Shown here piece by piece: positions 682 to 19,683 of a stretch of DNA of 32,796 nucleotides (its first letter is position 1; every line of letters starts with the position of its first letter). Origin of the DNA: an uncultured Myxococcales bacterium (GTDB lineage: Bacteria > Myxococcota_A > UBA9042 > DTJE01); the NCBI GenBank assembly GCA_903847405.1, contig CAINDP010000248.1:1-32796 (forward strand), read 5' to 3'. Both the position numbers and the translations under genes were made by a program. Below the pieces are notes generated by a model. The model had not been told where the DNA came from. It saw only the letters and a program-made list of their open reading frames with translations, and searched no databases.

Positions 682-1997
682 AGCGCGTCCGGGACGAACG
701 GAAGGACTTTGAACGCGAGCACCGGCGCATCGCGACGGTCCGGATGCAACTGCTGCAGCACCACCCCTTCTGGGGCTACCTGCTGCTGGATGCCGAGTTT
801 CGGCCCTCGCCCGACCTCCCGACCCTGGCGGCCACCGACGGCGTTCGGCGCATCTGGTACAACCCCCGCTATACCCGGTACCTGCCGTACCGCGAACTGG
901 GGTTCGTGCTGCTGCACGAGATTGGCCACGTGGTGATGGAAAGCCTGGCGCGCCGCCGCGACCGGGAGCACGGGCGCTGGAACCTGGCGACCGACTACGC
1001 GATCAACCGGATGGTGGCGTCGATCCTGGAACCGGGGCGTAGCATGCGGCCCATGTACCAGATTCCGCGGCGGCACATCCCGGGCCTTGGGGACCTGCGG
1101 CCGCCCCTGCACGATCGCTACGACGACATGACGGCGGAAACCATCTTCGAGTCCCTGGGCGAGGACGACATCGCCGACTGGCCCCGTGGCGAACTCGACC
1201 TGGAATACGGCGAGGACGGCAGCCTGGGCCTGCCACAGCCCCCGGCGCCCGATCGGCGGATGGGGCGCCTGGTGCGGGTGTCCGAGGACGTCGGTCGCCT
1301 GGACCTGCACGTACCGCCGGAGGCGCTGGAACCCGCGGACGGCGACGATATCGGGGATCGGGCGAAGGAACGGGTGCGTCGTGCCGCCGAGCACGCGACC
1401 TCCCTGGACCAGGCCGGCGACGTGCCGGGCGACGTGCGGCGGGCCTTGCAGCCGAAAGGCAACGAGGAAGTCCCCTGGTGGGAACTGCTGCGCGAGCACC
1501 TGGGCCGCTCGATCCAGCGGGACGACTTTTCCCGGGCCCGCCCCAACCGCCGGTGGATGGCCTACGACCTCGTGATGCCCTCGCTGCGATCCGACCGTCC
1601 CGGCGACGTGATCATCGCCCTGGACACCTCGGCCAGCATGCGGCTATCCGATCTGGCCGCGGTCGGCCGAGAGATCCGCCCCCTGCTGAAACTGGCCGAG
1701 GAAGCGATCCTGGTGGTCCACGACGCCGCGATCCAGGAAATCGTCCGCGGCTCCGCCGACATCCTCAAGTGGCTGGCCGCCGGCTACGCGAAGGGCGGCG
1801 GCAGCACCGACCACCGCCCGGTGTTTGAATGGCTGGCGCGCGAAGGGTTGGAGCCGGACGTGTTCGTGGGTTTGACGGACCTGGAATCGTGGTTTCCCGA
1901 CCGCGCCCCGCCGTGGCCCTGCATCTGGGTGGTGCCGCTACGGGCGTGGAAGCACAAGGTGCCCTGGGGCACGCGGGTGGACGTGATGCCGGTTTGA
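678..1997 (+). CDS. DUF2201-type metallopeptidase-like protein with C-terminal VWA-like domain
   Basis: Encodes 439 residues. The N-terminal part carries HEIGH at residues 80-84, a zinc-peptidase-like HExxH motif in a helix context (LLHEIGHVVM), as in the putative metallopeptidase domain of the DUF2201 family. A charged linker (about 170-260) leads to a VWA-like domain beginning DVIIALDTSASM; D316, S318 and S320 form a DxSxS metal-binding MIDAS motif. The ATG overlaps the stop of the upstream MoxR-type gene, so the two are translationally coupled. MoxR-VWA pairs are a recurring two-component chaperone or remodelling unit whose substrates are mostly unknown. Whether the HExxH is catalytic here cannot be told. 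The C-terminus ends in VDVMPV. Confidence 0.85.
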   Translation: MKRVRDERKDFEREHRRIATVRMQLLQHHPFWGYLLLDAEFRPSPDLPTLAATDGVRRIWYNPRYTRYLPYRELGFVLLHEIGHVVMESLARRRDREHGRWNLATDYAINRMVASILEPGRSMRPMYQIPRRHIPGLGDLRPPLHDRYDDMTAETIFESLGEDDIADWPRGELDLEYGEDGSLGLPQPPAPDRRMGRLVRVSEDVGRLDLHVPPEALEPADGDDIGDRAKERVRRAAEHATSLDQAGDVPGDVRRALQPKGNEEVPWWELLREHLGRSIQRDDFSRARPNRRWMAYDLVMPSLRSDRPGDVIIALDTSASMRLSDLAAVGREIRPLLKLAEEAILVVHDAAIQEIVRGSADILKWLAAGYAKGGGSTDHRPVFEWLAREGLEPDVFVGLTDLESWFPDRAPPWPCIWVVPLRAWKHKVPWGTRVDVMPV

Positions 1998-2038
1998 GGA
2001 GACGTCGTGGACACCTTTCATCCACGCAAATCGCACTG

Positions 2039-5823: not shown

Positions 5824-6759
5824 TCAGTTCGTGGATTTCAGCGGCTGTTCATTCCGCGCCTGCGTGTACTCTTTCTTGAGTTCATCGACGTTCATCTTCA
5901 TGTCGCTCCGGCACCAAGCCTTCGCCGCCTTGCCGACCGCAAAGGTGATCGAGGAAGCGATGGCGATCTTCGCCCCCGGAATGAACGAAGCGAGCACCAG
6001 ACCGGCGAACGACGCGCCAATCGAGGCAATGAAACCCCTGACCATCGAGTCCGTCAGTTCAAGTCCGTAGTTCGATCCGAGTTGCTTCACCATATAGATT
6101 TCGTTCGCGATCAACGGGTATATGTCCGCAAGCGGAACAGGCACCACGGCAATCGCCGCAGCGCGACCCGTGGCCCATCGTACGATGGAATTGGCCTCCG
6201 TATCCATTCGCGCAGTGATCTCCGGAGTGCGCTCCGCAAGGAATCTGGCGAGACGGAGGTCATCTCCATTCCGCACGGTCAAATTGACCAGCAAGTTCGA
6301 AAGTAGATCCAAGCCTTCCCCGGTCCTCGTACTGGTTTCGATGCTGTGCGCTGACTTGAGCGATCCGCGCAGTTGACCGAAAACCTGGCGCGCCGATTCA
6401 CGATCCGCGTCAACCTTGTTGCAGACCAGAATCACGGGCCGCGTCGTCGCCGCCAACTGCTCGTGGCAGCCAGCAACGGACTTAGTCAATCCTTCGTTTG
6501 CATTTACGATGTGTACGAAGACGTCGCTTTCGCCGAGGAAGTCAAAGGTCTTCGCCGCGACAGCCGCCTCGACGTCTTCAAGTCCAGGTGTATCGGCGAT
6601 GAATACGTCGTTCCCGAGAGGGTATTTCTTGACCTCCTTTGTCCAGCCTGCAACTGGAGATACATCCGCCAACTTCTTCTTCAGCAGGCGATTGCACAGG
6701 GACGATTTTCCGGCATTCACTTTTCCGATCAGCGTCACAACGATGGGAGTAGCATCCAT
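5824..6759 (-). CDS. Era/Der-like GTPase with DUF697-like hydrophobic C-terminus (paralogue 1)
   Basis: Encodes 311 residues. The GTPase domain shows G1 GKVNAGKS (12-19), a candidate switch-I Thr in AGWTKEV, G3 DTPG (56-59), G4 NKVD (114-117) and a G5-like region ETSTRTGEG. The last ~110 residues are hydrophobic (AAAIAVVPVPLADIYPLIAN, then IASIGASFAGLVLASFIPGA) and resemble DUF697/YcjF-type membrane-associating domains found behind Era-like GTPases. The ATG overlaps the stop of the upstream GTPase by one base (TAATG), so the pair is translationally coupled. The two proteins share AGWTKEV and TPGLEDV and clearly arose by duplication. Probable role: GTP-dependent remodelling or signalling at the membrane; partner and effector unknown. 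Confidence 0.88.
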   Translation of the reverse strand: MDATPIVVTLIGKVNAGKSSLCNRLLKKKLADVSPVAGWTKEVKKYPLGNDVFIADTPGLEDVEAAVAAKTFDFLGESDVFVHIVNANEGLTKSVAGCHEQLAATTRPVILVCNKVDADRESARQVFGQLRGSLKSAHSIETSTRTGEGLDLLSNLLVNLTVRNGDDLRLARFLAERTPEITARMDTEANSIVRWATGRAAAIAVVPVPLADIYPLIANEIYMVKQLGSNYGLELTDSMVRGFIASIGASFAGLVLASFIPGAKIAIASSITFAVGKAAKAWCRSDMKMNVDELKKEYTQARNEQPLKSTN

Positions 6760-7889
6760 TAGTTCACCGACCGCTTGTTTTTGTTCTCGCGCATGAACTC
6801 TTCTGCAGCCTGCCGGAACACCTCCTGCAGGTCCTCCATGGAGGTCTTCATTCCAGTTTGGTAGTAGATTTTTGCCGCCTGCCCAAGCCCAAAGGTCATG
6901 CTTGCAGCGGTAAGTCCTGCGGTGCCAGCCGCGATGGCCTCGCCCCAAGGACCACCAACCCACCCGAAGAGTTTAAGCGCCGCGCGAAAGAGCATCTTCC
7001 CGACGCGTCCGGCGGCGATCTCTGTGATGAACGGGAGGATATCCCTACGCGTCGCTTCGACACCGTAGGCGTTTGCAATCCTTATAGCGAGTCCAACCTG
7101 CAGGGCCGTGAGCGGGATCGAATCCGAGAAGGGTAGAGGGATCACGCCAAGACCGAACGCGATTCCGGTCGCGCCCCAGATCCACTTGTCGATGATCGCG
7201 TCCTTGTCCCTGACGAGTTTGGCGAAAAGAAGATCTTTGCCGTTTTCGGCGAGGATTGTGGCGATGCCGGCATTCAACTGCGGGATGCCGTCGAGCGTTC
7301 TCGCGGAAACAGGGAACATCAGGTCGTCAGGGGTCAAGCCGAGCCGCTGCCGAGTGTCAGAAAGCTTGATACGCCGCCATTCCTCGGGCGTGTCGTCGTC
7401 TTGCTGTGTCGCCAAATCCATCTTGTTCAGAACGACGACGACCGGTCGTCCCGACGCCTTCATGTTAGCCAGTGTGTCCCGGTACGGACGGGTCGCGCCG
7501 ACATCGGCGTTCACGACGAGAAGTACGATATCAGCGTCCTTCTCGATGAACTTCTCCGTCCTGGCGGACACATCGGAGTTCACGTCCTCAAGCCCAGGGG
7601 TATCCGCGATCATGATGTTCGGCATATGGGGAATCGGGAAGAGTTGGACCTCTTTGGTCCAACCGGCGATCGGCTTCACATCAGCATATTTACAGCCGGT
7701 CATTGCGTTGATCAGCTTCGACTTTCCGGAGTTCACTGAACCAAGCAGGCTGATCACGAGACGCTGCTGAAGCGCGCTCTGCGCTTTCTTCGCCTCCTCG
7801 TCGAACAATTGCTCCGCATTCTCCTCTGCTCGTGAGAAGTCCACCTGATTCTCGAAAGTAGGATCTGTGCTGACGAAGTCAGTGGTCAT
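6759..7889 (-). CDS. Era/Der-like GTPase with DUF697-like hydrophobic C-terminus (paralogue 2)
   Basis: Encodes 376 residues. The ATG is preceded by GGGGAG seven bases upstream, which decides the start over the longer frame. A 45-residue acidic helical N-terminus precedes G1 GSVNSGKS (50-57); then AGWTKEV, DTPG (96-99), NKMD (155-158) and a G5-like VSART. The C-terminal ~150 residues are hydrophobic (GATGIAFGLGVIPLPFSDSI, then AIAAGTAGLTAASMTFGLG), DUF697-like, ending in a short amphipathic helix. It is longer than its neighbour at both ends. Its start overlaps the end of the small membrane protein gene upstream by 11 bp. Two adjacent, non-identical GTPases suggest a heterodimer, which is inference. 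Confidence 0.88.
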   Translation of the reverse strand: MTTDFVSTDPTFENQVDFSRAEENAEQLFDEEAKKAQSALQQRLVISLLGSVNSGKSKLINAMTGCKYADVKPIAGWTKEVQLFPIPHMPNIMIADTPGLEDVNSDVSARTEKFIEKDADIVLLVVNADVGATRPYRDTLANMKASGRPVVVVLNKMDLATQQDDDTPEEWRRIKLSDTRQRLGLTPDDLMFPVSARTLDGIPQLNAGIATILAENGKDLLFAKLVRDKDAIIDKWIWGATGIAFGLGVIPLPFSDSIPLTALQVGLAIRIANAYGVEATRRDILPFITEIAAGRVGKMLFRAALKLFGWVGGPWGEAIAAGTAGLTAASMTFGLGQAAKIYYQTGMKTSMEDLQEVFRQAAEEFMRENKNKRSVN

Positions 7890-8178
7890 TGATTCGCTCC
7901 CCAGTTTGCGAGTTTCGTGCAGGTATGGCAGGTCCACGGTCACCATGTCCGGAGCCCTCAGGTTTCGGGGTCGCAAGTTTGGCTTCGGCGACGGACAGTA
8001 GGGCATCGAGCCCCTTCAACCCTAACCGGAATCGGTCGAGCGCCTGCTGACGTGCGGATGCCGGTTGCGGGGCGCTCGCCCGGCGAATTACGTAGATTCC
8101 GATAAGGGTCAGTACGACAAGGTCGAACAAGACCAAGTTGGCGAGTGCCACCCAAACGAGGGCCTCTGTCCCGTCCAT
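7879..8178 (-). CDS. Small single-pass membrane protein, first gene of the GTPase cluster
   Basis: Encodes 99 residues from ATG at 8178; a TTG at 8238 would add 20 residues but would place the start inside the probable -35 box, so the ATG is preferred. Residues ~6-30 (LVWVALANLVLFDLVVLTLI) form one transmembrane helix, followed by an Arg-rich cytoplasmic region and a helix (QALDRFRLGLKGLDALLSVA). The end is disordered and overlaps the GTPase start by 11 bp. No family recognised. Its place at the head of the cluster suggests a membrane anchor or receptor for the GTPases. Confidence 0.65.
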   Translation of the reverse strand: MDGTEALVWVALANLVLFDLVVLTLIGIYVIRRASAPQPASARQQALDRFRLGLKGLDALLSVAEAKLATPKPEGSGHGDRGPAIPARNSQTGERINDH

Positions 8179-8244: not shown

Positions 8245-9897
8245 CTAAGTGACCAACCACAACGCGTCCAGCCCCAGTTCCCTTGCGACCCGCACAGCCT
8301 CCGAAATCCGATGCACAATGGGCATCCCCCGCGTGTTGAACGAGGTGTTGATGACACCCTGAACGCCGTATCGGTGGCGCAAGGTCCGAAGCACCTGATG
8401 GATGTGGTCCAGTTGGGGGGCATGTTCGTCCACGATCTGCGCCCTGACCGTCCCGTCGGCATGAACGCAACCTTCGAATGGCGCCAGCCAGCCGGGGGCC
8501 AGGGGCCACGCCCCCAGCATGAAACGTCCAAGGGCGCTTCCATCGACGTACCCCACCAACGCCTCTCGTGCGACTTCCGGCAGAAGCATGGGCGCCACGG
8601 GTCGATACCACTCCCGCTGCTTCATGTCCTCGCTCAACCGACGTCTCAGCGACACGGAATCCGGTCGGGCAAGCAGGCTGCGGTGCCCCAGGGCGCGGGG
8701 CCCGACCTCCGCGTCGCCCGCCCAGACGCCGATGATCTTGCCGTCCGCGATGGCCTTGGCTGCCTCGTCGGGGGTGCGCAGAATGGGCACGCCGGCCGCT
8801 GCGATCGCGGGCGATTCGATGGGCACCGTGTTCAGGAAGGGCGAGTGCGGCCGAACGTCGTGACCCGCACGCCACTCCAGGAACGCGGCCGCTCCCAGCG
8901 CCAGCCCCGCATCGCTGGGGGCCGGTGGGATGCTGACCGACTCGAAGCCCAACTCCTGTTCAATGCGGACGTTGGCGTGGATGTTCAGCGCCGCGCCGCC
9001 CGAGTAGTACAGGTGACGCGCCCCGGTGCTGGCCCGATGCGTTCGGATGTACGCGAGGACCTCCTCCTCGAAGTGCCGCTGCATGCACGCGGCCAGAACC
9101 TGGCTGCCACGATCGCGAGGCGAGAAGGCGACAAGGGGCAAGCCGGGAAGGCCACGTTGCAACGCGGCGCAGGCCTCATCCCTGAACAGCGAACCGTCCC
9201 GCATCCACGCGTGCCGCGTCAGCCATTCGGTGGTGGCCAGGTCCGGCCGGCCGAAACTCGCCAGGCCCATCAACTTGCCCGGCATGCTCAGGTGGTCCTT
9301 GGCATCCAGCCCGAGGATCCAGCGGGACAACGGACTGTCGTTGAAATTGTTCGCCGCACCTTTGAGGCCCGCATGCCACCCGTGATCCAGGCAGGTGACT
9401 TGCCGGCCATCCCAATACCAGGCGCTGGCGCAGGAGCGGGAGGCTCCCCCATCCACGTGGATCAGTAGGCTGTTGGAGGGGAAGGGTCCGAAAAAGGGCA
9501 GGCCGGTGGCCACGTGCGCCATCTCGTGGCAGATGGTGTAGAAGCGCGCGGGATGGGGCGTCCCCTGGATCTTCAGTCGTCCGCGGCACTCGGCCAGGAT
9601 CTCGGGGACCTCCAGGTCGCCGGCCCCGGTGATCTCGAGCATGCCGCGGGCAGAACGAAAATCGCAGCCCGTAAACGAGTTGACCAGGACGATCTGGACG
9701 GGCTCGCCGGGCCGAAGCAGGGACCCAACGAGATCCTCGAAATGCGCATCCAGGGCGCCGTCGTGCTTGCGGCCGGTGTGGCGCTCCAGCTCCTGGCAGT
9801 AGACCACGCGCCCGTTTTCCATGACGGCGACGCCGTGATCGTGGGACGTGCCGTCGGCATCCCGACCCGGGACCCCGTGAAGGCCAATCGTCAGCAT
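8245..9897 (-). CDS. NodU/TobZ-family O-carbamoyltransferase
   Basis: Encodes 550 residues, normal for the family. Known members make carbamoyl-adenylate from carbamoyl phosphate and ATP in a YrdC-like domain and transfer the carbamoyl group to a hydroxyl, often of a sugar or natural product, in a Kae1-like domain. Visible motifs: HEMAH (the HxxxH metal site), LLIHVDGGAS, LYYSGGAALNIHAN, PPAPSDAGLALGAA, and in the C-terminal domain GDAEVGPRALGHRSLLARP and VINTSFNTRGMPIV, all hallmarks of the family. Its start overlaps the end of the phosphatase gene by 7 bp, so it is the last gene of the four-gene unit. The acceptor is unknown; a sugar or peptide made by the upstream glycosyltransferase-radical SAM protein is the natural guess. 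Confidence 0.92.
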   Translation of the reverse strand: MLTIGLHGVPGRDADGTSHDHGVAVMENGRVVYCQELERHTGRKHDGALDAHFEDLVGSLLRPGEPVQIVLVNSFTGCDFRSARGMLEITGAGDLEVPEILAECRGRLKIQGTPHPARFYTICHEMAHVATGLPFFGPFPSNSLLIHVDGGASRSCASAWYWDGRQVTCLDHGWHAGLKGAANNFNDSPLSRWILGLDAKDHLSMPGKLMGLASFGRPDLATTEWLTRHAWMRDGSLFRDEACAALQRGLPGLPLVAFSPRDRGSQVLAACMQRHFEEEVLAYIRTHRASTGARHLYYSGGAALNIHANVRIEQELGFESVSIPPAPSDAGLALGAAAFLEWRAGHDVRPHSPFLNTVPIESPAIAAAGVPILRTPDEAAKAIADGKIIGVWAGDAEVGPRALGHRSLLARPDSVSLRRRLSEDMKQREWYRPVAPMLLPEVAREALVGYVDGSALGRFMLGAWPLAPGWLAPFEGCVHADGTVRAQIVDEHAPQLDHIHQVLRTLRHRYGVQGVINTSFNTRGMPIVHRISEAVRVARELGLDALWLVT

Positions 9898-11243
9898 CGG
9901 CCGCCCTCCCGGATACCCGCGAAACGGCGGAAGGCGGTCGTGGCCCCCGGGTTCTTCACCAGGCAGACGCCCTCCAGGTAGGTGCACCAGTCGCTTCGAT
10001 CCGGTGCCTTCAGGCCCAGGTAGCTCATCAGTGCGGCCGAGAAGAAGTCATGCGTGACGAACACCGTGCAGTCGGCTTCGGCCACTTGTTCGTCGAGGAA
10101 CGCCAGCAACTGTTCGGAGGCTTCGGGAATGGGCCGCATGCCGAGGGCCAGGCCGCTGTCCAGATAGCCGCCCGCGAACGCGTGGAAGTCGGTTCGCATC
10201 AGTTCCGAATGGACGCCCGAGCCGTCGAAGTAGATGCCGGGTTCCCCGAGGTGGGTATGGGTGCGGATTTCCGAGGCGCCCGACCCCGCCCCCCGCGCGA
10301 TCGCCTCGCCGGTCTGCCTGCAGCGATTGACCGGGCTGGACCAGATCCCGAACCGGACGGTTCCCGCAAGTTCCTGGCCGAGACGCGTCGCGTCGGCGAT
10401 TCCCCGTTCCGTCAGGAGGACGTCGTTCCCCCAGTTGGGGGTTTCGCGGGTGATGGGATCGCGCTCCGCGTGGCGCAGGAAGAGGCCGATCCTGGTCCCC
10501 TGGCCGAGGAGACTGCGGATCTCGGCGAGCGTGATGGGCTCGAGGCTCGCGGCGACGTGGGTCCAGGTGCCGTTGACGCGTAGTCGCAGAAACCCGCCGT
10601 CCCATCCCCGGCACAGGGCCACGCCGTTGTAGAACGGCTCCGCGGCCTGGAATCGCTGCGGGTGAATCGGCCTGCCCGTTCTGTCCACATGGTGGAACCC
10701 ATGCTCGTCGGCGACGACGGCGTGTCCCTTGTGGAACGGTTCCGCGTGGACGTATGTGGCCGTGTTCAGCGGTTCCCCATTCTTCCGTATGTGGAGGGCG
10801 CCGCCAGTCCCGTGGGCGACGGCCACGCCGTTGCGGAAGTCCCCCGCGTACCGGAACCGCAAGGAATAGGCGTCCGCACCCGAAGCATCGACGTGGAAGA
10901 ACCCGCGCTGGTCCTGCACGGTGCAGCGGCCATCCTGGAAATTGCCCGACCAGCGGAATCGCCGCTCGTGGATGGGGCTCCCGTCCACGCGGATGTGGAA
11001 CCATCCGCGCCCGTCCCGCACGGCCGCCACGCCTTCGTAGAACCCGCATGCCTCCAAGAAGCGGAACGTGTACCGCGGGTTCGCGTCGAGGTCCACGTGG
11101 TACGCGCCCGTTTCGTCCCGGACCGCGGCCAGGCCTTCCGGGGCATGGAAGCTCATGGCCGCCTGGAACACCTTCCCCTTCCAGGGATCGCCATCCAGCA
11201 GGAACCCCGTTCCGGACTCGTTCAGCGTCGGGTGGTCAGTCAT
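9891..11243 (-). CDS. WG-repeat protein fused to histidine phosphatase domain
   Basis: Encodes 450 residues. The start at 11243 is preferred over 11249 because GAGGAGG lies six bases before it. Residues ~15-235 are about five repeats of ~40 residues with the pattern F-x-G-x-A-x-V-x-D-x-x-G-x-x-H-I/V-x-x-x-G-x-P (for example GVAAVRDGRGWFHIRVDG), matching WG/KWG beta repeats. Residues ~250-450 are a histidine phosphatase (phosphoglycerate mutase superfamily) domain: LFLRHAER at 255-261 with the catalytic His, WSSPVNRCRQTGEAI, and VFVTHDFF with the second His. It probably removes a phosphate from a metabolite or modified product, the WG repeats serving as a binding scaffold. Translation is coupled to both neighbours by overlaps (8 bp and 7 bp). 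Confidence 0.85.
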   Translation of the reverse strand: MTDHPTLNESGTGFLLDGDPWKGKVFQAAMSFHAPEGLAAVRDETGAYHVDLDANPRYTFRFLEACGFYEGVAAVRDGRGWFHIRVDGSPIHERRFRWSGNFQDGRCTVQDQRGFFHVDASGADAYSLRFRYAGDFRNGVAVAHGTGGALHIRKNGEPLNTATYVHAEPFHKGHAVVADEHGFHHVDRTGRPIHPQRFQAAEPFYNGVALCRGWDGGFLRLRVNGTWTHVAASLEPITLAEIRSLLGQGTRIGLFLRHAERDPITRETPNWGNDVLLTERGIADATRLGQELAGTVRFGIWSSPVNRCRQTGEAIARGAGSGASEIRTHTHLGEPGIYFDGSGVHSELMRTDFHAFAGGYLDSGLALGMRPIPEASEQLLAFLDEQVAEADCTVFVTHDFFSAALMSYLGLKAPDRSDWCTYLEGVCLVKNPGATTAFRRFAGIREGGRC

Positions 11244-13494
11244 TGGCATCCTCCTCGACCGGGCGTCTCATGTTGCATTTCAGGCAGTTCGGGTGGCGGC
11301 CCCAGCCTTCCACGAAGTCCCGGTACCGGAGTGACGTCCACAGATCCATGAACGGTGCGTCGAGCACGCTGCCGAATTCGCCGAAGGCCTTTCGTTCGCC
11401 GCGGGGACAGCAGCAAACCTGGAATGTGCCGTCGGCCTCGATCCACGCTTCCCGTCCGAGGAACGGGCATCGGGTCGCGGTGCCGTCACGAGGCTCGCTG
11501 TCGAGCCGGATCGGCTCCACGTTTTCCAGCCGGATCCGCTTGCCGTTCGGCGCCGTTTCGTGCTCGGCGATTTCTCGGAGGACATCGACCATCCGGTTCC
11601 ACCTTGCGGCGGCCTCGTGGGATCGCCGCAGGGATTCCGCTTCCATCTGCGGCCAGGTCACCCAGAGCTGGTGCCCCTTGAAACGGTCGAGCCCGTTCGC
11701 GATGGCCCAGCGGAGCAGGCGGGGCAATTCCTCCAAGGTGCTTTCCATGAACGTCGCCTGGACAGTGGCGGTGCTGGTCTGGCCTGTCTCGGTTTCGCGC
11801 CGGCATTTCAGTTCGAGGTACCGCCGGATGTTCTGGAGTTGCAGCCGCGCGCCTGCTCCGGGCATGACCCGCTCGGCCACGGCCGGTTCGATCGCGTTGA
11901 CGCTGAACTTGACGTCGGACACGACGGGCAGGAGGGCGGCCGTCCACGCATCGACACCCCCGCGACCCGGGAACGTGCCGTTGGTGGTCAGGTTGACCTT
12001 GACCCCGGTGCGGGCCGCCAGTTCCAGCAGCCGCCGGAAGTCCGGATACAGCAACGGCTCCCCCATGGTCGAGGGCAGGATCTCCTGCAGGCCGCGCTGG
12101 GCCAGTTCCAGGACGACGCGTTCCACGACGTCGAAATCCAGGAGCGGCAACTCCTTCGGGTCGGCCGATGCATAGCGGCTGTGCGTGTCGCACATGGGGC
12201 AATGCAGGTTGCACAGGCCCGGGTTCGTGACGAAAGTGACGCGTCGAGGCGCCGGGCACATCGGGAGAGCGGGCGTGCGGCGGGTCCCGGCCAACCCCTG
12301 GTAGACAGCGACGCACGCCTCGGCGTCGTCCGCGATGGTCCTCACGCTGCCCCGGTCGGGCTTGAGGGCGCCCAGGCGACCCGGGTCGTCCATCACACGC
12401 TGCAACAGGCCGCGGAGCGCCCCCACATCGCCCAGCGGGAAGAGGAAGCCGTTCCTGCCGTCCTGTACCAGTTCGGCCATGCCGCCGGCGTCGGACGTGA
12501 TCACGGGCAACTCCGCCAGCAGGGCCTCCTGGATCACCAGCGGCGAGTTCTCCAACCAGAGGGAAGGCGCGACCAGGAGGTCCATGTCGTCCAGGGCTTC
12601 CTGGATCTGGCCATTGTGGTATCCCCCGCGAAAGGTTACCCGCGGGTCGTTGCCGCAGAGTGCGTCCAGCCATCGCCTGTCGGAACTCGCATCGCCCCAC
12701 ACGTCCAACGTGGCCCGACCTTGCGTCGCGTGGAAAGCCTCCAGGAGAACGTGGATTCCCTTGCACGGGATGACGCGCCCCAGGAAGCCGAAGCGCAAAG
12801 GCCCGGCGACCCGCGGTGTCTTTCGCGGCGTGATGCGGTTCACGTCGAACCCGTAGGGAGAAAAGATGACCTTCTGTTCCGGCACGCCCTGGTTCCGGAA
12901 GAACGTGGCCACGGTGCGCGACGGCGCGAGGCAGACGTCCAGGTGTTCGACGACGTCCCGAATGTGTCGCAGCCGGGCCTCCACCTGGCCTTGGTCGATC
13001 CACTCTTTGAAGAAGTGCCTGGAGCAATCCAGGCAGGCCGCGACGGAGGGCCCGTCGCAAAGTCCGCCGTCGGGCCGCACCAACTGTCCGCGGAAGCAGT
13101 ACATCCAGAAGTCGTGGATCGTCAGCACCGTCGGGATCCCGAATTCGGCCCGGGCGATTGCTGGCAACTGCGTGGACAGGTGGGACAGATGGCCGAAATG
13201 GACGACGTCCGGCTTCGTCTTCCGCAGCATGGCGCGGAAGGCCTCGTCGACGCGGTGGTCGAGGTACTTGTCGCGGAACGTGTAGTCGCGCCCGGGCTTG
13301 TTCAGCCGCCGCACGAACACGCCGTCCTCCAGCGAGTCGGTGGTCCGGTAGGGTGCGGCGTAGGGGTTCTCGATGCGCGTGAACACGGATACCTGATGGC
13401 TCCCGGTCAAATGCCGGGAGAGGTTCCAGGTGTAGACCTCCGAGCCGGCCATGTACTGTGGCGGGTAGCCGTGGATGACCTGCAGGATCTTCAT
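11236..13494 (-). CDS. Glycosyltransferase family 4 - radical SAM/SPASM fusion protein
   Basis: Encodes 752 residues. Residues 1-~405 are a GT-B, family 4 glycosyltransferase: MKILQVIHGYPPQYMAGSEV, FSPYGFDVNR, LRFGFLGRVIPCKGIHVLLE and the E-x7-E nucleotide-sugar motif (E315 to E323) followed by VITSDAGGMAELV. Residues ~415-752 are a radical SAM enzyme: C428, C432 and C435 in CNLHCPMCD bind the [4Fe-4S] cluster, and a Cys-rich C-terminus (CPFLG, CCCPRG, CLKC) fits a SPASM-type auxiliary cluster region. The start ATG overlaps the stop of the upstream gene (ATGA) and has GGAG upstream. One polypeptide would transfer a sugar and do radical chemistry on the same or a related substrate; SPASM proteins often modify peptides. 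No precursor peptide was identified nearby. Confidence 0.88.
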   Translation of the reverse strand: MKILQVIHGYPPQYMAGSEVYTWNLSRHLTGSHQVSVFTRIENPYAAPYRTTDSLEDGVFVRRLNKPGRDYTFRDKYLDHRVDEAFRAMLRKTKPDVVHFGHLSHLSTQLPAIARAEFGIPTVLTIHDFWMYCFRGQLVRPDGGLCDGPSVAACLDCSRHFFKEWIDQGQVEARLRHIRDVVEHLDVCLAPSRTVATFFRNQGVPEQKVIFSPYGFDVNRITPRKTPRVAGPLRFGFLGRVIPCKGIHVLLEAFHATQGRATLDVWGDASSDRRWLDALCGNDPRVTFRGGYHNGQIQEALDDMDLLVAPSLWLENSPLVIQEALLAELPVITSDAGGMAELVQDGRNGFLFPLGDVGALRGLLQRVMDDPGRLGALKPDRGSVRTIADDAEACVAVYQGLAGTRRTPALPMCPAPRRVTFVTNPGLCNLHCPMCDTHSRYASADPKELPLLDFDVVERVVLELAQRGLQEILPSTMGEPLLYPDFRRLLELAARTGVKVNLTTNGTFPGRGGVDAWTAALLPVVSDVKFSVNAIEPAVAERVMPGAGARLQLQNIRRYLELKCRRETETGQTSTATVQATFMESTLEELPRLLRWAIANGLDRFKGHQLWVTWPQMEAESLRRSHEAAARWNRMVDVLREIAEHETAPNGKRIRLENVEPIRLDSEPRDGTATRCPFLGREAWIEADGTFQVCCCPRGERKAFGEFGSVLDAPFMDLWTSLRYRDFVEGWGRHPNCLKCNMRRPVEEDAND

Positions 13495-13835
13495 TCCGCT
13501 TCTCCGCTTTCTTCCAGATTCATCCCGACGCCCGGGGCGACCCGCCGGACCCGCGCCTTCGATCGTGCGCGGTTGGTGGAGGTCCTGGGCCGGAACACCG
13601 TGACGAGGTGCTCGTCTTCCACCACGCATACGATCGGGACCGCCTTCGAAGCCCGCTGGTACTCATCGCGCCCCAGCAGGCCCTCGGCCCACAACGAGCG
13701 CAGATGCTGCCGCGTCAGCAGCACGCGGGCCGGATTGCGCTGCAGCGGAACTCCCTCCTCCAGGGCCAGGTGTACCAGGCCCGGGCGGATGCAACGCTGT
13801 CTCATCCTCTCTCTGGCATGGAAGGTCGTCTTCAT
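13491..13835 (-). CDS. DUF4258-like small basic protein, first gene of sigma-54 operon
   Basis: Encodes 114 residues from an ATG with GGGAG eight bases upstream. The N-terminus (FHARERMRQRCIRPGLVHLA) matches the His-x-x-x-R-M-x-x-R opening of DUF4258 proteins, some of which resemble RelE-type toxins or BrnT-like folds. A beta-rich middle follows (VPIVCVVEDEHLVTVFRPR), then a basic tail. It ends inside the start of the glycosyltransferase-radical SAM gene (4 bp overlap). Possible roles are a toxin-like RNase, a nucleic-acid-binding accessory, or a substrate of the downstream enzymes; the sequence does not decide between them. Confidence 0.75.
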   Translation of the reverse strand: MKTTFHARERMRQRCIRPGLVHLALEEGVPLQRNPARVLLTRQHLRSLWAEGLLGRDEYQRASKAVPIVCVVEDEHLVTVFRPRTSTNRARSKARVRRVAPGVGMNLEESGEAE

Positions 13836-13890
13836 CTGTCACTCCCTTCGAGTTGTCGTTCCGTCCCGGGCTGCACGGATCATTTCGTAT

Positions 13891-13906
13891 TGCAGCCGCC
13901 GTGCCA
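13891..13906 (-). promoter_or_regulatory. Sigma-54 (-24/-12) promoter of the carbamoyltransferase operon
   Basis: The minus strand reads TGGCACG (13906-13900), four bases, then CTGCA (13895-13891). This matches the RpoN consensus TGGCACG-N4-TTGCA with one mismatch, and the diagnostic GG and GC dinucleotides are exactly 10 bases apart. Transcription would begin near 13880, leaving a leader of about 45 bases before the ATG at 13835. A sigma-54-type AAA+ activator is encoded divergently 268 bases away, the usual arrangement for regulator and target. Confidence 0.8.
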
Positions 13907-13991
13907 GACGGCGAAGTCCGGCCGCCGCCCAGGCGGGATGCCTGGAACCCAACGGGGATTGGATGTTGCGTAAGGCCAGGAGTTACGGGTT

Positions 13992-14008
13992 ATTGGCGAG
14001 TTCGCAAT
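13992..14008. promoter_or_regulatory. Imperfect inverted repeat, candidate upstream activator site
   Basis: ATTGGCGA and TCGCAAT flank two bases; the GCGA/TCGC core is perfect and the outer arms pair if one G is bulged. It lies roughly 90-100 bases upstream of the -24 element, a typical distance for a sigma-54 activator site. A second short inverted repeat, CGTAA/TTACG, is at 13969-13987. Both are candidates only. Confidence 0.35.
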
Positions 14009-14096
14009 CGTGGTCGTTCCGAGGCGCTTGGGCGTGTTCCCTTGCTGAACGAGGCCCACTACGGTGCGGGATGTTGGGTGGATAAAGGTAATGCGG

Positions 14097-14125
14097 TTGC
14101 CTTGAGTGTTGCATGAGATTATCGT
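14097..14125 (+). promoter_or_regulatory. Possible sigma-70-type promoter of the activator gene
   Basis: TTGCCT (14097-14102) is followed after 17 bases by TATCGT (14120-14125); each box matches four of six consensus bases. Transcription would begin near 14132, about 42 bases before the GTG at 14174. Confidence 0.4.
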
Positions 14126-14173
14126 CAACGGTAATTGAACGGCGCAGGTCGTACCTCTGGATTGGAGCAAGGC

Positions 14174-16072
14174 GTGGGGCAATTGACGTTCGTGACGGGC
14201 TGGTTCAGGCGGCACGGCATCGCGTACCTGGACATGGTGCTTGGCGCGCTGGAGGACGCCGACATTCCCAACCGACTGAAACTCGATCCGGTGCCATCCG
14301 GCGCGCTGGTGAAAGGCAGTGATCAGTATGACCTGGCGCGCTCGCTGGGATACATGGGCGACCAGGGGGGGAAGCCCCTGAAGGCGCTGGATCGGGTGGT
14401 GATGCTTCTCCCGAAGAGTTTGAAAGGGCTGTCGGAGGCCAGGCCGGAGGACTTCCTATCGGATGCGAAGTGGGCGAGGTTGCGCGGGAGTCTGGCAAAG
14501 GAGGGGCGGGATGCGGAGCCTCTGCTCGAGGAACTCCGACGCACGATCGAACACGATCGGACTTTTCCGTCACTTGCCTGGTTCGAAAAGACGTGGCGTG
14601 GGCGCGAACGGCTTCTGTGGCACGTCATCAACGAGGCCCCGCTCCAGACCCAGATCGATTGGTATCGCAAGTACTCGCCCCTCTACCTGGCCAACAAGTC
14701 CCGGGTCCAGTTCGAGTACCTGGACATCCCCGACGTCGAGAATCCCGAGGCCGTTACCTCGGCGATGTACGATTGGCTGGAGCGGGACGGGCACGGAGAT
14801 CGACTCCTGGTGAACCTGTGGGGCACGGCCACGGCGGTGCAGTTCGGCTGGTACTACCTGGCGTGGCGCCGACCCGCTCTGGTCGACGCGGTCTTCCTGA
14901 AGTGCTGGGACGACAAGTCCGTCAAGCACGCACGCCTCGCGCCCATCACGATCGAGGTGGTCGACAAGGACCCGATTGGCCGCCTGAGCGTCCCCGTCCG
15001 GCGCGTCACTTGGGAATCGGACGCCCGGCTTAACGCCACGGGCTGGCTGCAGTTCTATCTCCGGCAAGACGACAACTTCTCCATCCTGCTCCTGGGCGAA
15101 CGGGGCACCGGCAAATCCGAGGCGGTGGGCAACGCGTGGAAGTCGACCGGGCGCGCGGGTGAAGTCGTCGTTGCAAACTGCGCCAACTTCAGTGATGCGA
15201 CGCAGGCGCGTAGCGAGTTGTTCGGTCACGAGAAGGGAGCGTTCACGGATGCCCACAAGGAACGGAAGGGACTTCTGGAGCAGGCCGATGGCGGGCTGTT
15301 GTTCCTGGACGAGGTCCATCATCTGGACCGGGAAACCCGGTCGATGCTCCTCACCGCTCTGCAGACCGACCGGGAAGGCAGGTACTCCTTCACAAGGCTC
15401 GGCGGACAAGGAAGCATCCATGTGCGATTCCAGCCGGTGTTCGCATCGAATTGCTCCCGGGAGACTCTGGCGAGGAAACTTGCGCCGGACTTCCTGGACC
15501 GCATCAGTCAAAGGATCCTGCACTGGCCCAGTATCGCGGTCGGTGAACTTGCAGGGGTCTGGACCGAAGTCTGGGACCGGATGAAATTCAAGGGCCCGGG
15601 GCCGAAGAACCCGATCGGCCTGGACTGGTTCGTACCCTGGCTGGAGAATCAGCGGCGGCCAGGGAACTTCCGCGACCTGCAGCGCATCGCCATCCTCGTT
15701 GCCGACTACCAGCGCGCCGTTATCGGCGCAGAGGCGGAAATGGCGCTGGTGCCTTCGGAATGGACGCTTCAGACATTCCTGGAGGAGAGGCTTCGGGAAC
15801 CGAGCGTGCCGGATGGAAGGAAGCAGTTTGGCGAGGTCGGGCAATCCCGCAAGGGCGAAGTGTCACCAGGAATCGTCGTTCCGATCGACCTCGGGGTCGC
15901 GGACGTGACCGAGAAGATCTATCTGGATGCTTGCCGGAGCGCGTTCGCCAAGGAAGTGAAGGTGCGTTTCAAGACACAGAAGGCTGCCGTAGAGGAACTG
16001 CGGCGACGGGGCAGCGGGATGACCGAGTCCACGCTCACCAAGTGGACGAAGAACTCTCGAATCCGGTCGTGA
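14174..16072 (+). CDS. RtcR-like sigma-54-dependent transcriptional activator with CARF-like sensor
   Basis: Encodes 632 residues from a GTG with GGAG six bases upstream; a TTG at 14135 is the alternative. Residues ~1-290 are a sensor region without receiver or PAS features; LLVNLWGTATAVQFGWYYLA resembles the nucleotide-binding core of CARF/RtcR N-terminal domains (VNxxxGT followed by a hydrophobic helix). The AAA+ domain has Walker A GERGTGKS (about 309-316), ELFGHEKGAFTDA with the sigma-54-contact loop as GAFTDA (355-360) instead of GAFTGA, Walker B LLFLDE (375-380), and FASNCSRETLARKLAPDFLD. The C-terminus (TQKAAVEELRRRG, then TESTLTKWTKN) could be a helix-turn-helix. It is divergent from an operon with a sigma-54 promoter, its probable target. 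RtcR senses RNA-derived signals; a similar ligand here is inference. Confidence 0.85.
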   Translation: MGQLTFVTGWFRRHGIAYLDMVLGALEDADIPNRLKLDPVPSGALVKGSDQYDLARSLGYMGDQGGKPLKALDRVVMLLPKSLKGLSEARPEDFLSDAKWARLRGSLAKEGRDAEPLLEELRRTIEHDRTFPSLAWFEKTWRGRERLLWHVINEAPLQTQIDWYRKYSPLYLANKSRVQFEYLDIPDVENPEAVTSAMYDWLERDGHGDRLLVNLWGTATAVQFGWYYLAWRRPALVDAVFLKCWDDKSVKHARLAPITIEVVDKDPIGRLSVPVRRVTWESDARLNATGWLQFYLRQDDNFSILLLGERGTGKSEAVGNAWKSTGRAGEVVVANCANFSDATQARSELFGHEKGAFTDAHKERKGLLEQADGGLLFLDEVHHLDRETRSMLLTALQTDREGRYSFTRLGGQGSIHVRFQPVFASNCSRETLARKLAPDFLDRISQRILHWPSIAVGELAGVWTEVWDRMKFKGPGPKNPIGLDWFVPWLENQRRPGNFRDLQRIAILVADYQRAVIGAEAEMALVPSEWTLQTFLEERLREPSVPDGRKQFGEVGQSRKGEVSPGIVVPIDLGVADVTEKIYLDACRSAFAKEVKVRFKTQKAAVEELRRRGSGMTESTLTKWTKNSRIRS

Positions 16073-16127: not shown

Positions 16128-17192
16128 TCACGAACCCGCAAGGTCCGCCGGGATTCCGACCGTGCCGTCCGGCCAGACGACCTTGGACCAGTCGCGCAGT
16201 TGCTCGTGGGGACGGCGACGCGGAACCGGGATGCGGGCGGCTCGGGCGCGACGTTCCAGCTCATGGTCCCGCTCGAACAGGGGTTGGTTGGCCAGGATGT
16301 GCCGCTGGACGCTCGCCATGAACTCCGCCACCCTCGCGCGGCCCGCCTCGAAGAACGGCTGCAGTTCGACGGCCCGCGCCTCCAGGGCAGCCGAGTCCAG
16401 GGACTCGCACCATGTGGCCCAGGCCGCCAGGCACTCCCGGAAACGTGCCGGGTCCAGCGTTGACGGAAAAACCCTGCACTCGAGGGTGGCGTGGTCGTTG
16501 ATGGAATAGAGGTTCAGCGCCTGGTTGCGCCCTCTGCCGAAGAGCCTTCGCCCCTTGCCCAGTTCGTCCTTGTCGTATCCCGCCATGGCCTCCGCATCGC
16601 CAGGCATCAACTGCTGCGCAAAGGCCAATCGGTCCGCGTCCCGGCCGCTGGTGCCGTGCGGGTAGGCCAGGTCGAAGAAGCGGTTCTGCACCGGCAGCCA
16701 GGCGTCGATGATGGCGACGGCAGCGAGGTAATCGTGCCGTTCGCGGATCTGGCGTTCGTCGTAGGTCCGCCGTTGGTGCTCCAGCGCCTCCCGCCAGTCC
16801 AGGTCGTCGCAGGAGTAGTGCTGGCAAGTGCGGCCGAACCGATCGGTGACCCCCGGCACCAGCGCGTGCAGATGCAGCCCGCAGGTGCGCTTGACCCGGG
16901 CGCCGCACGACGCCAGCACCTCGACGATGGCCGCGAAGCCCGTCACCGCGGAGTCCACGTCCGGGAAGGGCGGCGACTGGACCTCCAGGCTCCGCAACCG
17001 GGCACTGCCGATGGAGCGGTCCTCCGCGAACATCATCCCCTTGGCGTCCATGACGGCGCCCGGGATCTCGAAGCCGCCGCGGGGAAAGGGCCTGCGGGGG
17101 AAACGTGCCTCGGCGGCCTTCAGCGCCGCATGGCGATCGCACTCGACCTCCAGTTCAAAGCCGTACGTGATGCCGCGGGTGCTTTCTGCCAT
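16128..17192 (-). CDS. Putative amidoligase (ATP-grasp-like COOH-NH2 ligase, Amidoligase_2 type)
   Basis: Encodes 354 residues from an ATG with GGGAGG seven bases upstream. Signature pieces are YGFELEVE near the N-terminus, CGLHLHA in the middle, and NLYSINDHATLECRVFPSTL, together matching putative amidoligases (glutamine-synthetase-like COOH-NH2 ligases). Such enzymes form amide or isopeptide bonds, for example in peptide tagging or cell-wall chemistry. The gene follows the TPR gene by 3 bp and so shares its transcript. It is convergent with the activator gene ending at 16072. The substrate is unknown; the TPR protein may bring it. Confidence 0.8.
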   Translation of the reverse strand: MAESTRGITYGFELEVECDRHAALKAAEARFPRRPFPRGGFEIPGAVMDAKGMMFAEDRSIGSARLRSLEVQSPPFPDVDSAVTGFAAIVEVLASCGARVKRTCGLHLHALVPGVTDRFGRTCQHYSCDDLDWREALEHQRRTYDERQIRERHDYLAAVAIIDAWLPVQNRFFDLAYPHGTSGRDADRLAFAQQLMPGDAEAMAGYDKDELGKGRRLFGRGRNQALNLYSINDHATLECRVFPSTLDPARFRECLAAWATWCESLDSAALEARAVELQPFFEAGRARVAEFMASVQRHILANQPLFERDHELERRARAARIPVPRRRPHEQLRDWSKVVWPDGTVGIPADLAGS

Positions 17193-17195
17193 GCT

Positions 17196-19001
17196 TCACC
17201 TCCCGAATCCCAGCCGGTCGTCCTTGATGTCATCCCACAGGCCCGTGTACCCCGGGTCGAACTGCCGGAGCGTCTTCGCGGCATCCATGGCCCGAAGCCA
17301 GGCGGACCCGGCATCGCGGCCGGCGGCACGGAGGTGGCGAGCCGCGTCGTGCCAGCAGTGGGCCACCTGCAGGAGGTCGTCGATGCGGTGGGTCCGACCC
17401 TCCAGTTGGCCGTAACATTCGGCCGCCTGGACCGCCAGGTCGGCCGCGGGATCCCCTTCGCCTTTGGCGAGGGCCAGCCGGGCGCGGCGGTTCAGGATGT
17501 CGCCCCGGGCCCGGGCCACTTCGCGGCTGTCCTTCGGGTCGAGGGACGCGATCGCGTCCAGGCCATGGGCCGAGTACCGCTCGGCGCCCTCCAGGTCGTT
17601 CCGCTTCAGGCAGGCGTCGGTCAGCCGCGAGCACGCGCCGCAGATGGACGCCTGGCGCGACGCGGCGTCGGCCGAGTTTCCCGAAGGCATCGAAACCGCG
17701 CGGTCCAGGAAGGCTTCGTACCACTTCATCGCCCGGTCGAACTCGTGGTTCCGGAAGGCAGCATCTCCCAGGCGCTCATAGGTTCCGAGCAGGGCGTGCA
17801 CGCGCTCGCCGGTCTCGTCGTGGCGCACGACCTCCCGCAGGATCTTCAGGGCACGTCCGTAGAGCACGACGGCCTGGTCCCGGTCGCCCTCGCTCTGGAG
17901 CCCGTCGCCCAGGTTGATCAGCAGCGCACCGAGCCGGTCGATCCCGTCCGGGGCCTCGCTGGAGGCGACGTCCAGTTCCGCGTCGGGAAGGGCGTCCAGC
18001 AGGAGGGGCAGCGCCCGGGCCGTCTGTCCCGACTCCTGGGCCATCTGGCCCAGCGCCAGGAGGGCATTGACCCGCAGAGGCCGGGCCAGCGTGGCATTCC
18101 CGTCGAGGGCCGCCCAGCCGATGTGAACCAGGGATTCCCGCAGCCACCCGGTCGCCTCGCGGTCGTGGTTCCGGTCATTTTCCGCCCGGGCCATGACCTG
18201 CTCGCAGGAAGCCACGTGAAGCAACGCGATGCCACCGCCGGCGAGGTTCAGAAGGCGGTCGTGCACGGTTCGCAGACGCGGGAGGGCCTCCTCGGCGCGA
18301 CGCTGGTCCAGCAGGTCCTCGGCCGCAGGCAGTTCCACGCGCACCAGTGCCTCGGCTTCCTGGTCCAGCATTGCAGCCAGATGGGGCATCCGCTGGCGAA
18401 TGTACAGACCCCGCTCTTCCCCGGCCCGGAAGCCGCGCAGCACCGCGTCGGGAGCGGCCCCGGAGGCGGCACGGGACAGCGCGGAGGACGCATCCTCCAG
18501 CAACAGGAACTCGTCGCCCTGTTCGGCCAGAAGCACCGAGCCCCGGGCGTCGCCCAGCCTCCGCGCGGTGGGGTTCCGCCGGGCAGACTCCAGGTTTTCC
18601 GGCCGCGTGGAACTGGAGTTTCCTTCGGCGGCAAGTCGGGGCCACTCCGCGGGCCAATAGCCCACGTGCACCGAACTGTAGACGTTCGCACCCGTGCCGC
18701 AGTGGTAGAGGAAGTACTGCCAGGGGCTGGGTTCCCCCTTCTCGACCAGGTAGAAGCGCACGTTCCGGAGCACGGCCTCCCGGATCTCGGCGTACGTCGG
18801 GTCCTCGGGGTCCAGCAGGAACTCCAGGATCGCGCGGTCGGGCGCCGCCTTGGCCAGGCGAGCCACCAGGGGGAACGAGTCCCCGTTGGCGTCCCCGAAC
18901 GTGAAGGTGAAGTGCTCGCCCAGGCGATCCACCCATCCCTCCTCGATCCGAATCGGCTGCGGATCCCGGGTCCCGGACGTGGTCTTGGGAGATCGAGCCA
19001 T
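17196..19001 (-). CDS. TPR-repeat protein with novel N-terminal domain, partner of amidoligase
   Basis: Encodes 601 residues; AGGAGG lies six bases before the ATG. The first ~130 residues (FTFTFGDANGDSFPLVARLA, then FYLVEKGEPSPWQYFLYHCG) form a mixed alpha/beta domain I do not recognise. From ~220 onward the protein is helical, with tetratricopeptide-like repeats, for example LLINLGDGLQSEGDRDQAVV, ALLGTYERLGDAAFRNHEFD and ACSRLTDACLKRNDLEGAER. There is no signal peptide, so it should be cytoplasmic. TPR arrays bind peptides or proteins, which suits a substrate-presenting partner for the amidoligase encoded 3 bp downstream. Confidence 0.85.
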   Translation of the reverse strand: MARSPKTTSGTRDPQPIRIEEGWVDRLGEHFTFTFGDANGDSFPLVARLAKAAPDRAILEFLLDPEDPTYAEIREAVLRNVRFYLVEKGEPSPWQYFLYHCGTGANVYSSVHVGYWPAEWPRLAAEGNSSSTRPENLESARRNPTARRLGDARGSVLLAEQGDEFLLLEDASSALSRAASGAAPDAVLRGFRAGEERGLYIRQRMPHLAAMLDQEAEALVRVELPAAEDLLDQRRAEEALPRLRTVHDRLLNLAGGGIALLHVASCEQVMARAENDRNHDREATGWLRESLVHIGWAALDGNATLARPLRVNALLALGQMAQESGQTARALPLLLDALPDAELDVASSEAPDGIDRLGALLINLGDGLQSEGDRDQAVVLYGRALKILREVVRHDETGERVHALLGTYERLGDAAFRNHEFDRAMKWYEAFLDRAVSMPSGNSADAASRQASICGACSRLTDACLKRNDLEGAERYSAHGLDAIASLDPKDSREVARARGDILNRRARLALAKGEGDPAADLAVQAAECYGQLEGRTHRIDDLLQVAHCWHDAARHLRAAGRDAGSAWLRAMDAAKTLRQFDPGYTGLWDDIKDDRLGFGR

Positions 19002-19408
19002 GTTGCACCTCCTTGGCCGGCAGGGGAGCGGCCATCGCCGGGGGGAACATTGGAGCGGGTTGGGTGTGTCGCAAGGGGAGCGGGGGCTTGTTCGCGGCGA
19101 GCGGCACGTAGCGTGCCGCGGATTATCAAAATCTACCGGATTGCCCGTGCGGCCCTTGCGGAGTACCTGTGATGACGAAGGACGGTGACAGGGCGATCCT
19201 TCATGCCGCGCCCCCGCCATCATCCCGCCGTTCAAGCTCGACCAGGACGGTCGAACCGGAGGAGCGCCGGGAACCCAAGCTGATCGTGAACGTCAGACCG
19301 TTCTTGGGCGGGTTGCCGCCGACGTACACCATGTCACCCCCGAGATCACGGTCATCACGGTCGGGGACGACGAGGACCCCATCAGGTAACTGCGAGAGCG
19401 ACATTACC
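19002..19408 (+). other. Gap between TPR gene and integrase remnant
   Basis: No well-supported gene. It contains a perfect 8-bp palindrome (19101-19119) with a GATAAT box just upstream on the minus strand, and a low-confidence 71-codon frame on the minus strand. The plus-strand frame running into the integrase remnant is Ser/Arg/Pro-rich and looks like non-coding or scrambled sequence. Confidence 0.5.
19101..19119. promoter_or_regulatory. Perfect inverted repeat upstream of TPR-amidoligase operon
   Basis: GCGGCACG and CGTGCCGC are separated by TAG. No T-run follows on either strand, which argues against a classical terminator. It lies 100 bases upstream of the TPR start and next to a minus-strand GATAAT (19127-19122) that could be a -10 box, so an operator is the likelier reading. 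Confidence 0.4.
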
Positions 19409-19416
19409 CTGGACAT
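19201..19416 (-). CDS. Possible small protein (71 aa), uncertain
   Basis: A 71-codon frame starting ATG with GGGAG nine bases upstream. Its translation (GVLVVPDRDDRDLGGDMVYV, then LTFTISLGSRRSSGSTVLVE) has a more natural composition than the overlapping plus-strand frame. It overlaps the integrase remnant by 8 bp. No family recognised; it could be a leftover of a larger gene broken at the island boundary. Confidence 0.3.
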   Translation of the reverse strand: MSRVMSLSQLPDGVLVVPDRDDRDLGGDMVYVGGNPPKNGLTFTISLGSRRSSGSTVLVELERRDDGGGAA

Positions 19417-19594
19417 CTACGGGATCTCCCGCTTGCTGGGCCACGCCTCGGTCACGACGACGGAGAAAGCCTATGTGGGGATTGCGGATTCGACTCTGAC
19501 GGCGGCGTTCGACAAGGCGGATGGGTGGGTTGCCACAAACGCGGCAACCCACGCGGCAACCCAAGGGCGGAAGCCACGCGACTACGACGCATAA
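19409..19594 (+). pseudogene. C-terminal remnant of a tyrosine recombinase (phage-type integrase)
   Basis: The frame carries ISRLLGHASVTTTEKAYV, the LGH-x-S-x-x-T-T-x-x-Y motif at the catalytic C-terminus of tyrosine recombinases: the His of the LGH box is present, and the Tyr appears shifted by one residue as EKAYV. Nothing upstream in this frame resembles the remainder of an integrase (no core-binding domain, no first catalytic Arg), so about 80 percent is missing. It ends at TAA 16 bases from the 3' end of tRNA-Thr, where such integrases normally attach their element. A defunct fragment marking an old insertion. Confidence 0.7.
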
Positions 19595-19610
19595 GTATTG
19601 GAATTGACAG

Positions 19611-19683
19611 AGCCAACGCGGAGAATCGAACTCCGGACCCCCTGATTACGAATCAAGTGCTCTACCGACTGAGCTACGTTGGC
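19611..19683 (-). tRNA. tRNA-Thr(CGT)
   Basis: 73 bases folding into a full cloverleaf: acceptor arms GCCAACG and CGTTGGC with discriminator T, D-arm GCTCAGTCGGTAGAGC, anticodon arm CTTGATTCGTAATCAAG with CGT, T-arm TCCGGAGTTCGATTCTCCG. CCA is not encoded. The 3' end faces the integrase remnant. Confidence 0.95.

Follow-up and report, generated by a model that had tools for sequence, protein, structure and literature searches.

A probable CARF-domain sigma-54 activator recurrently adjoins a glycosyltransferase-radical SAM operon in two bacterial phyla

We analysed a 32,796-nt stretch of DNA from an uncultured Myxococcales bacterium (hereafter the window), focusing on positions 8245-16072, where the gene of a predicted sigma-54 activator is divergent from four minus-strand genes that overlap their neighbours by 4-14 nt. 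An original prediction, made from the sequence alone, had described a 632-residue AAA+ activator divergent from four overlapping genes, and open reading frames (ORFs), homologue starts and Pfam domains bear this out. The activator (632 aa; 14174..16072, plus strand) has a probable CARF-AAA+-HTH architecture (HTH: helix-turn-helix), with a likely CARF part at residues ~1-265 and an AAA+ sigma-54 interaction domain at ~300-520, as judged from Pfam, PADLOC, the RtcR profile and an AlphaFold2 (AF2) model searched with Foldseek. Its ORF spans 14135-16072 on the plus strand, and we preferred the start at 14174 because homologues open at the same conserved strand. The divergent operon begins with a small DUF4258-like protein (13491..13835, minus strand; PF14076 at E=7.5e-4, sub-threshold at 20.2 vs 25 bits), followed on the same strand by a fusion of a GT4 glycosyltransferase (GT) with a radical SAM (rSAM)/SPASM protein (752 aa; 11236..13494; Pfam GT4, Radical_SAM and SPASM), which we will refer to as GT4-rSAM, a WG-repeat domain fused to a histidine phosphatase (9891..11243/9; PF14903 and PF00300, i.e., His_Phos_1, with an RHAE motif) and a TobZ/NodU-like O-carbamoyltransferase (550 aa; 8245..9897; PF02543/PF16861, i.e., Carbam_trans N and C).

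The EX7E motif of the GT4 part is intact at E315/E323 and the radical-SAM CX3CX2C motif lies at C428/C432/C435, both being invariant across nine GT4-rSAM homologues (alignment A1). The carbamoyltransferase has both Carbam_trans domains in common with TobZ and NodU and matches TobZ at E=1e-34 in the PDB; its score for the NodU equivalog is 106 vs a cut-off of 1000. The DUF4258-like gene has counterparts in the same place in five of the related loci described below (L038, L043, L046, L138 and L146). A PDB search with its product returned nothing meaningful and so gave no evidence of a RelE/BrnT fold.

To place the activator, we compared it with profiles of known regulators. Pfam matched Sigma54_activat (PF00158) at E=5e-30, and the best PADLOC family was RtcR_PspF1 CARF_AAA_HTH (PDLC01994; E=1e-54, 184 bits), aligned over positions 182-466 of 468, i.e., its AAA+ and HTH parts; both the sigma-54 AAA+ domain and the C-terminal HTH of CARF-AAA-HTH activators are thus present. 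Bacteroidales orthologues cover this profile from ~63 to 466 of 468, including much of the CARF part, and the family profile aligns with E. coli RtcR from mid-CARF (the C-terminal half of CARF) through the AAA+ domain. With RtcR the window regulator shares its divergent placement, a putative sigma-54 promoter and, probably, its domain architecture, but RtcR controls a different operon, rtcBA. We ruled out that the regulator is RtcR itself: its RtcR equivalog score (NCBIfam) is 109 bits vs a cut-off of 650, Pfam found no rtcBA in the operon, and RtcA, found in 1 of 16 regulator-bearing genomes and missing from 15, is not in the window's own genome, in agreement with the predicted absence of rtcBA. 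The N-terminus of an orthologue, taken alone, matches Pfam RtcR (PF06956) at E=0.0011, short of the curated cut-off, while that of the window regulator alone has no Pfam match. The AF2 model of this region has a predicted local distance difference test (pLDDT) score of 78 and a predicted template modelling (pTM) score of 0.80, and many of its higher-probability Foldseek matches are CARF proteins (Cdn1, with probability 0.93, Csm6', Card1, Csm6, Can2 and Sso2081), which bind, or are related to, cyclic oligoadenylates. Judging from sequence and model, the N-terminus is therefore likely a CARF domain.

The original prediction placed a TGGCACG-N4-CTGCA element with exact GG-GC spacing 56-71 bases before the first operon gene, and this was confirmed. 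The putative sigma-54 -24/-12 promoter TGGCACGGCGGCTGCA (13891..13906, minus strand) was assigned from its sequence, a shuffle score and the recurrence of YGGCAC. Read from 13906 to 13891, it consists of TGGCACG, GCGG and CTGCA with GG-N10-GC spacing, differs from TGGCACG-N4-TTGCW by one mismatch, and lies 56-71 nt upstream of the ATG at 13835. When the 300-bp region upstream was shuffled 300 times, one shuffle reached the score of the element. Within 300 bp upstream of the regulator, YGGCAC occurred on the operon-directed strand in 10 of 15 regulator loci vs 1 of 15 on the opposite strand, and after shuffling the same loci gave a mean of 1.1 and a maximum of 4. The GC dinucleotide at -12 is retained in the window and in L038. 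Upstream of the regulator in L043, L046, L140 and L145, TGGCAC is kept and TTGAA or TTGAC stands at -12. RpoN is present in 15 of the 16 regulator-bearing genomes. A search of the window's intergenic region for shared enhancer palindromes gave weak repeats only.

To see how often regulator and operon occur together, we scanned GTDB species genomes with a GT4-rSAM alignment and obtained 322 related stretches, of which 80 were kept for locus counts. The regulator-linked loci among the 80 were L038, L043, L046 and L048 (frameshifted in L048), the last three from Bacteroidales. In L038, from a metagenome-assembled genome of Sandaracinaceae, all five genes are present in conserved order, and in L043 and L046 the regulator accompanies DUF4258, GT4-rSAM, phosphatase, carbamoyltransferase and WG. 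When the regulator's N-terminus was searched alone in 393 Bacteroidales genomes, it gave 13 matches, 11 of them new; in seven of the eight new loci with enough sequence to judge, GT4-rSAM adjoins the regulator (L138, L139, L141 and L146, of which the last two end at a contig edge, L143, where regulator and operon are not divergently arranged, L144, and L145, where GT and rSAM are split). In a 50-row tree, regulator-linked rows occupy two deep GT4-rSAM clades, and the linkage spans two phyla, meaning that the link is either old or was made repeatedly. The expectation that homologues of the regulator neighbour these enzymes thus holds across phyla; regulatory coupling is strongly supported, and we consider it very probable that regulator and operon are coupled.

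An N-terminal search of 137 genomes related to that of the window did not find the regulator, and among 378 genomes drawn from the phylum of L038 only the genome of L038 had it. A peptide-pattern scan of GTDB genomes returned no relative besides the window's own regulator, a scan of viral contigs none, and plasmids carrying it were likewise not found. Next to some GT4-rSAM operons, CARF-less AAA+ proteins stand in the regulator's place (L049 8021-8983, L050 692-1702, L054 1600-2580 and L121 6569-7474). Those whose sequences were inspected have no GAFTGA loop and are therefore probably not sigma-54 activators; we treated these proteins as another type of regulator and left them out. The enzymes of L121 and L145 are nearly identical, their regulators different.

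The GT4-rSAM family itself extends over hundreds of genomes and several phyla, and a WG-repeat/phosphatase match accompanies it in 79 of the 80 loci. The WG protein is fused to different domains in different lineages (O-methyltransferase, kinase-like or histidine phosphatase), and the optional genes beside this pair are a short-chain dehydrogenase/reductase (SDR), a separate phosphatase, the carbamoyltransferase, a class II aldolase and further rSAM genes. The core also occurs in Wolbachia phage WO (L118), on Arsenophonus plasmids (L119) and in many Rickettsiales loci. In the Undecim cluster of phage WO (WD0611-WD0621; PMC9203015), UC3 is likewise a fusion of GT4 and rSAM and shows 36% identity to that of the window across 99% of its length, and the gene after UC3 has a WG domain. 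By contrast, the cluster is without a CARF/sigma-54 regulator, carbamoyltransferase and DUF4258 were not seen there, and it carries an SDR, a WG-methyltransferase and threonine aldolases; the eleven-gene Undecim set (SDR, methyltransferase, aldolases, transport) is not matched by the window operon, which holds DUF4258, GT4-rSAM, WG-phosphatase and carbamoyltransferase only. The Undecim protein therefore falls in a much wider family, and Undecim functions become open to study in free-living bacteria. In Brachyspira hyodysenteriae, a block of plasmid genes that includes a radical SAM protein and a glycosyl transferase is reported to be associated with virulent strains (PMC4267127); our plasmid searches did not return this block.

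Makarova et al. 2014 (PMC4012209) reported non-Rtc RtcR-like proteins with links to restriction-modification, and RtcR-associated CoCoNuTs (PMC11090510) also tie an RtcR-like CARF activator to a defence operon with a small RelE/BrnT-like gene nearby; their effectors, however, are McrBC-type GTPases and nucleases, whereas the window encodes biosynthetic enzymes. Our literature search found no link of RtcR_PspF1-type proteins to a GT4-rSAM operon. The original prediction, which knew of no described system with this gene set, has to be narrowed, given that the regulator family already has a catalogue entry and that homology ties the enzyme core to a part of Undecim. What is added is a target operon for such hitherto unassigned CARF-sigma-54 proteins, one that is recurrent and testable.

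We then asked what signal and context might be involved. Sensors of this kind respond to signs of RNA damage or viral infection. Cas10 is found in 3 of the 16 regulator-bearing genomes and not in the window's genome, and for most genomes we rejected type III CRISPR as the signal source; together with the rarity of RtcA, this disqualifies both rtc control and signalling by type III CRISPR as explanations of the set. Flanks of the regulator loci (110 non-operon ORFs, 13 loci) matched 69 PADLOC families at E<=1e-12, a figure that is not a gene count since several families match the same protein, compared with 4 families around rpoN (104 ORFs from 13 regulator-bearing genomes, most the same as those of the scanned loci), a conserved housekeeping control. 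The families in the flanks include Hma, Drm/Brx, AbiE, SoFic, viperin and candidate systems; in the window itself they are LeoA-like and REase-ARP only. In L147 (8679-11274), a regulator of the same family is divergent from a prokaryotic viperin gene truncated where the contig ends (E ~1e-33 to PDB viperin; above the NCBIfam cut-off), with a TGGCAT-N5-CTGAC element between them. The predicted stress or infection gating gains support from this defence-island context and the viperin-linked relative.

We infer the ligand, activation step, product and protective effect of the cassette as follows. The activator would sense a nucleotide- or RNA-derived signal through its CARF domain, oligomerise, and start transcription of the divergent operon at the -24/-12 promoter. 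The GT4 part would transfer a sugar and the SPASM rSAM alter it by radical chemistry, the histidine phosphatase would remove a phosphate and the carbamoyltransferase attach an O-carbamoyl group; the WG-repeat domain may serve to hold the substrate. The end product would be a modified sugar-containing molecule whose likely purpose is protection in infection or RNA damage. We see an about even chance that the locus is such a horizontally mobile, inducible CARF/sigma-54-gated sugar-tailoring cassette, likely protective during infection or RNA damage. The cassette is probably defensive; that the defence acts through a product seems possible, at somewhat less than even chances. A CARF-triggered chemical immunity, in which a nucleotide or RNA-fragment alarm leads via sigma-54 transcription to a modified-sugar product that blocks phage, is a tentative and rather unlikely extension. 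If true, it would make small-molecule synthesis, besides nucleases and RNA repair, a third CARF output (cf. the modified nucleotides of viperin). The pairing of regulator and operon in itself suggests that the reach of CARF signals can extend beyond nucleases and RNA repair to biosynthesis.

Several observations weigh against the cassette reading. The regulator stands beside the operon in 4 of the 80 GT4-rSAM loci, and most such operons are without it, so the enzymes must be useful without the regulator; conversely, L140 has the regulator and no GT4-rSAM within ~10 kb. CARF proteins were prominent in the Foldseek search, as predicted, but the N-terminal model yielded nothing at E<=0.001 (best E 0.016). 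The sigma-54 contact motif of the window regulator is GAFTDA, not GAFTGA; GAFTDA also occurs in two regulators from GT4-linked loci, and the motif across most relatives is GAFTGA, GAFTDA, GAFTSA, GSFTGA or GAYTGA. Of the promoter whose conservation in relatives was at issue, the -24 element is conserved, but Bacteroidales -12 elements lack the GC, with TTGAA or TTGAC in place of TTGCA. A viperin neighbour was seen once only: in six further viperin loci from the same order (one cut by a contig end), no regulator was found. Finally, no exporter or resistance gene was recognised within the operon.

The main rival is stress-gated tailoring of a surface glycan, in which an O-antigen or exopolysaccharide (EPS) is modified under the CARF switch, possibly masking phage receptors, with no soluble defensive product. 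The GT4 part resembles glycosyltransferases of EPS and lipopolysaccharide (LPS), many relatives carry a GalE/RmlB-type SDR, and EPS/LPS roles are what the Undecim authors inferred (PMC9203015). Yet no membrane, flippase, polymerase or lipid-carrier gene was recognised in the core, the core enzymes look cytosolic, and gating of O-antigen would be unusual for a CARF family whose other ties are to restriction systems and RNA repair; we regard this explanation as unlikely, if still a serious contender. Improbable, in our view, is that GT4-rSAM and the carbamoyltransferase target a peptide or protein (RiPP-like, i.e., as for ribosomally synthesised and post-translationally modified peptides, or by protein glycosylation), with the WG or DUF4258 protein as substrate or carrier. 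SPASM rSAMs often have peptide substrates, and there are weak matches to TIGR04157 (a GT paired with an rSAM in CFB bacteria) and TIGR04317, but no conserved precursor-peptide gene was seen, many operons are without the DUF4258 gene, and TobZ-type enzymes carbamoylate small molecules.

The kinship of the regulator to RtcR raises the question of whether the enzymes modify or repair toxin-damaged RNA, tRNA or ribosomes, in parallel to RtcR/RtcBA. RtcR is reported to answer damaged tRNA (PMC7790460), and the DUF4258 gene recalls the BrnT/RelE-like small gene upstream of RtcR-associated CoCoNuTs (PMC11090510). An RNA-binding domain, however, was not found, and the homologous core is accompanied by threonine aldolase, dioxygenase and O-methyltransferase, a small-molecule style; we consider this reading very improbable. 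Least probable of all is that regulator and operon are chance neighbours and the operon is expressed independently: the regulator is missing from most GT4-rSAM operons, but the linkage is recurrent, spanning two phyla as well as two clades of GT4-rSAM, and comes with a directed -24 element.

Turning to the surroundings of the proposed cassette, a tRNA-Thr gene (19610..19683, minus strand; ARAGORN and Rfam) marks the right edge of an accessory region and is a possible integration site. Beside its 3' end, an ORF fragment at ~19410-19591 resembles by eye the C-terminus of a tyrosine recombinase, with no Pfam support. Gene and recombinase-like fragment together hint at an integrated island, which the region to the left of the tRNA may be. 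A duplicate of the tRNA-Thr 3' end (att site) was sought in the window and only the gene itself was found, and a search via one flanking gene for a syntenic empty site in genomes of the same genus gave no usable anchor. Downstream of the operon and on the same strand lie two tandem dynamin-like/DUF697 GTPases with LeoA/LeoBC-type PADLOC matches (5824-8006, minus strand). Further left, a DUF2201 metallopeptidase/VWA protein is followed by REase-ARP (PD-(D/E)XK) at 111-4543 (plus strand), an arrangement resembling NTP-dependent (nucleoside triphosphate-dependent) conflict systems. On the other side, an Amidoligase_2-like protein and a TPR protein (16128-19235, minus strand) adjoin the regulator in convergent orientation.

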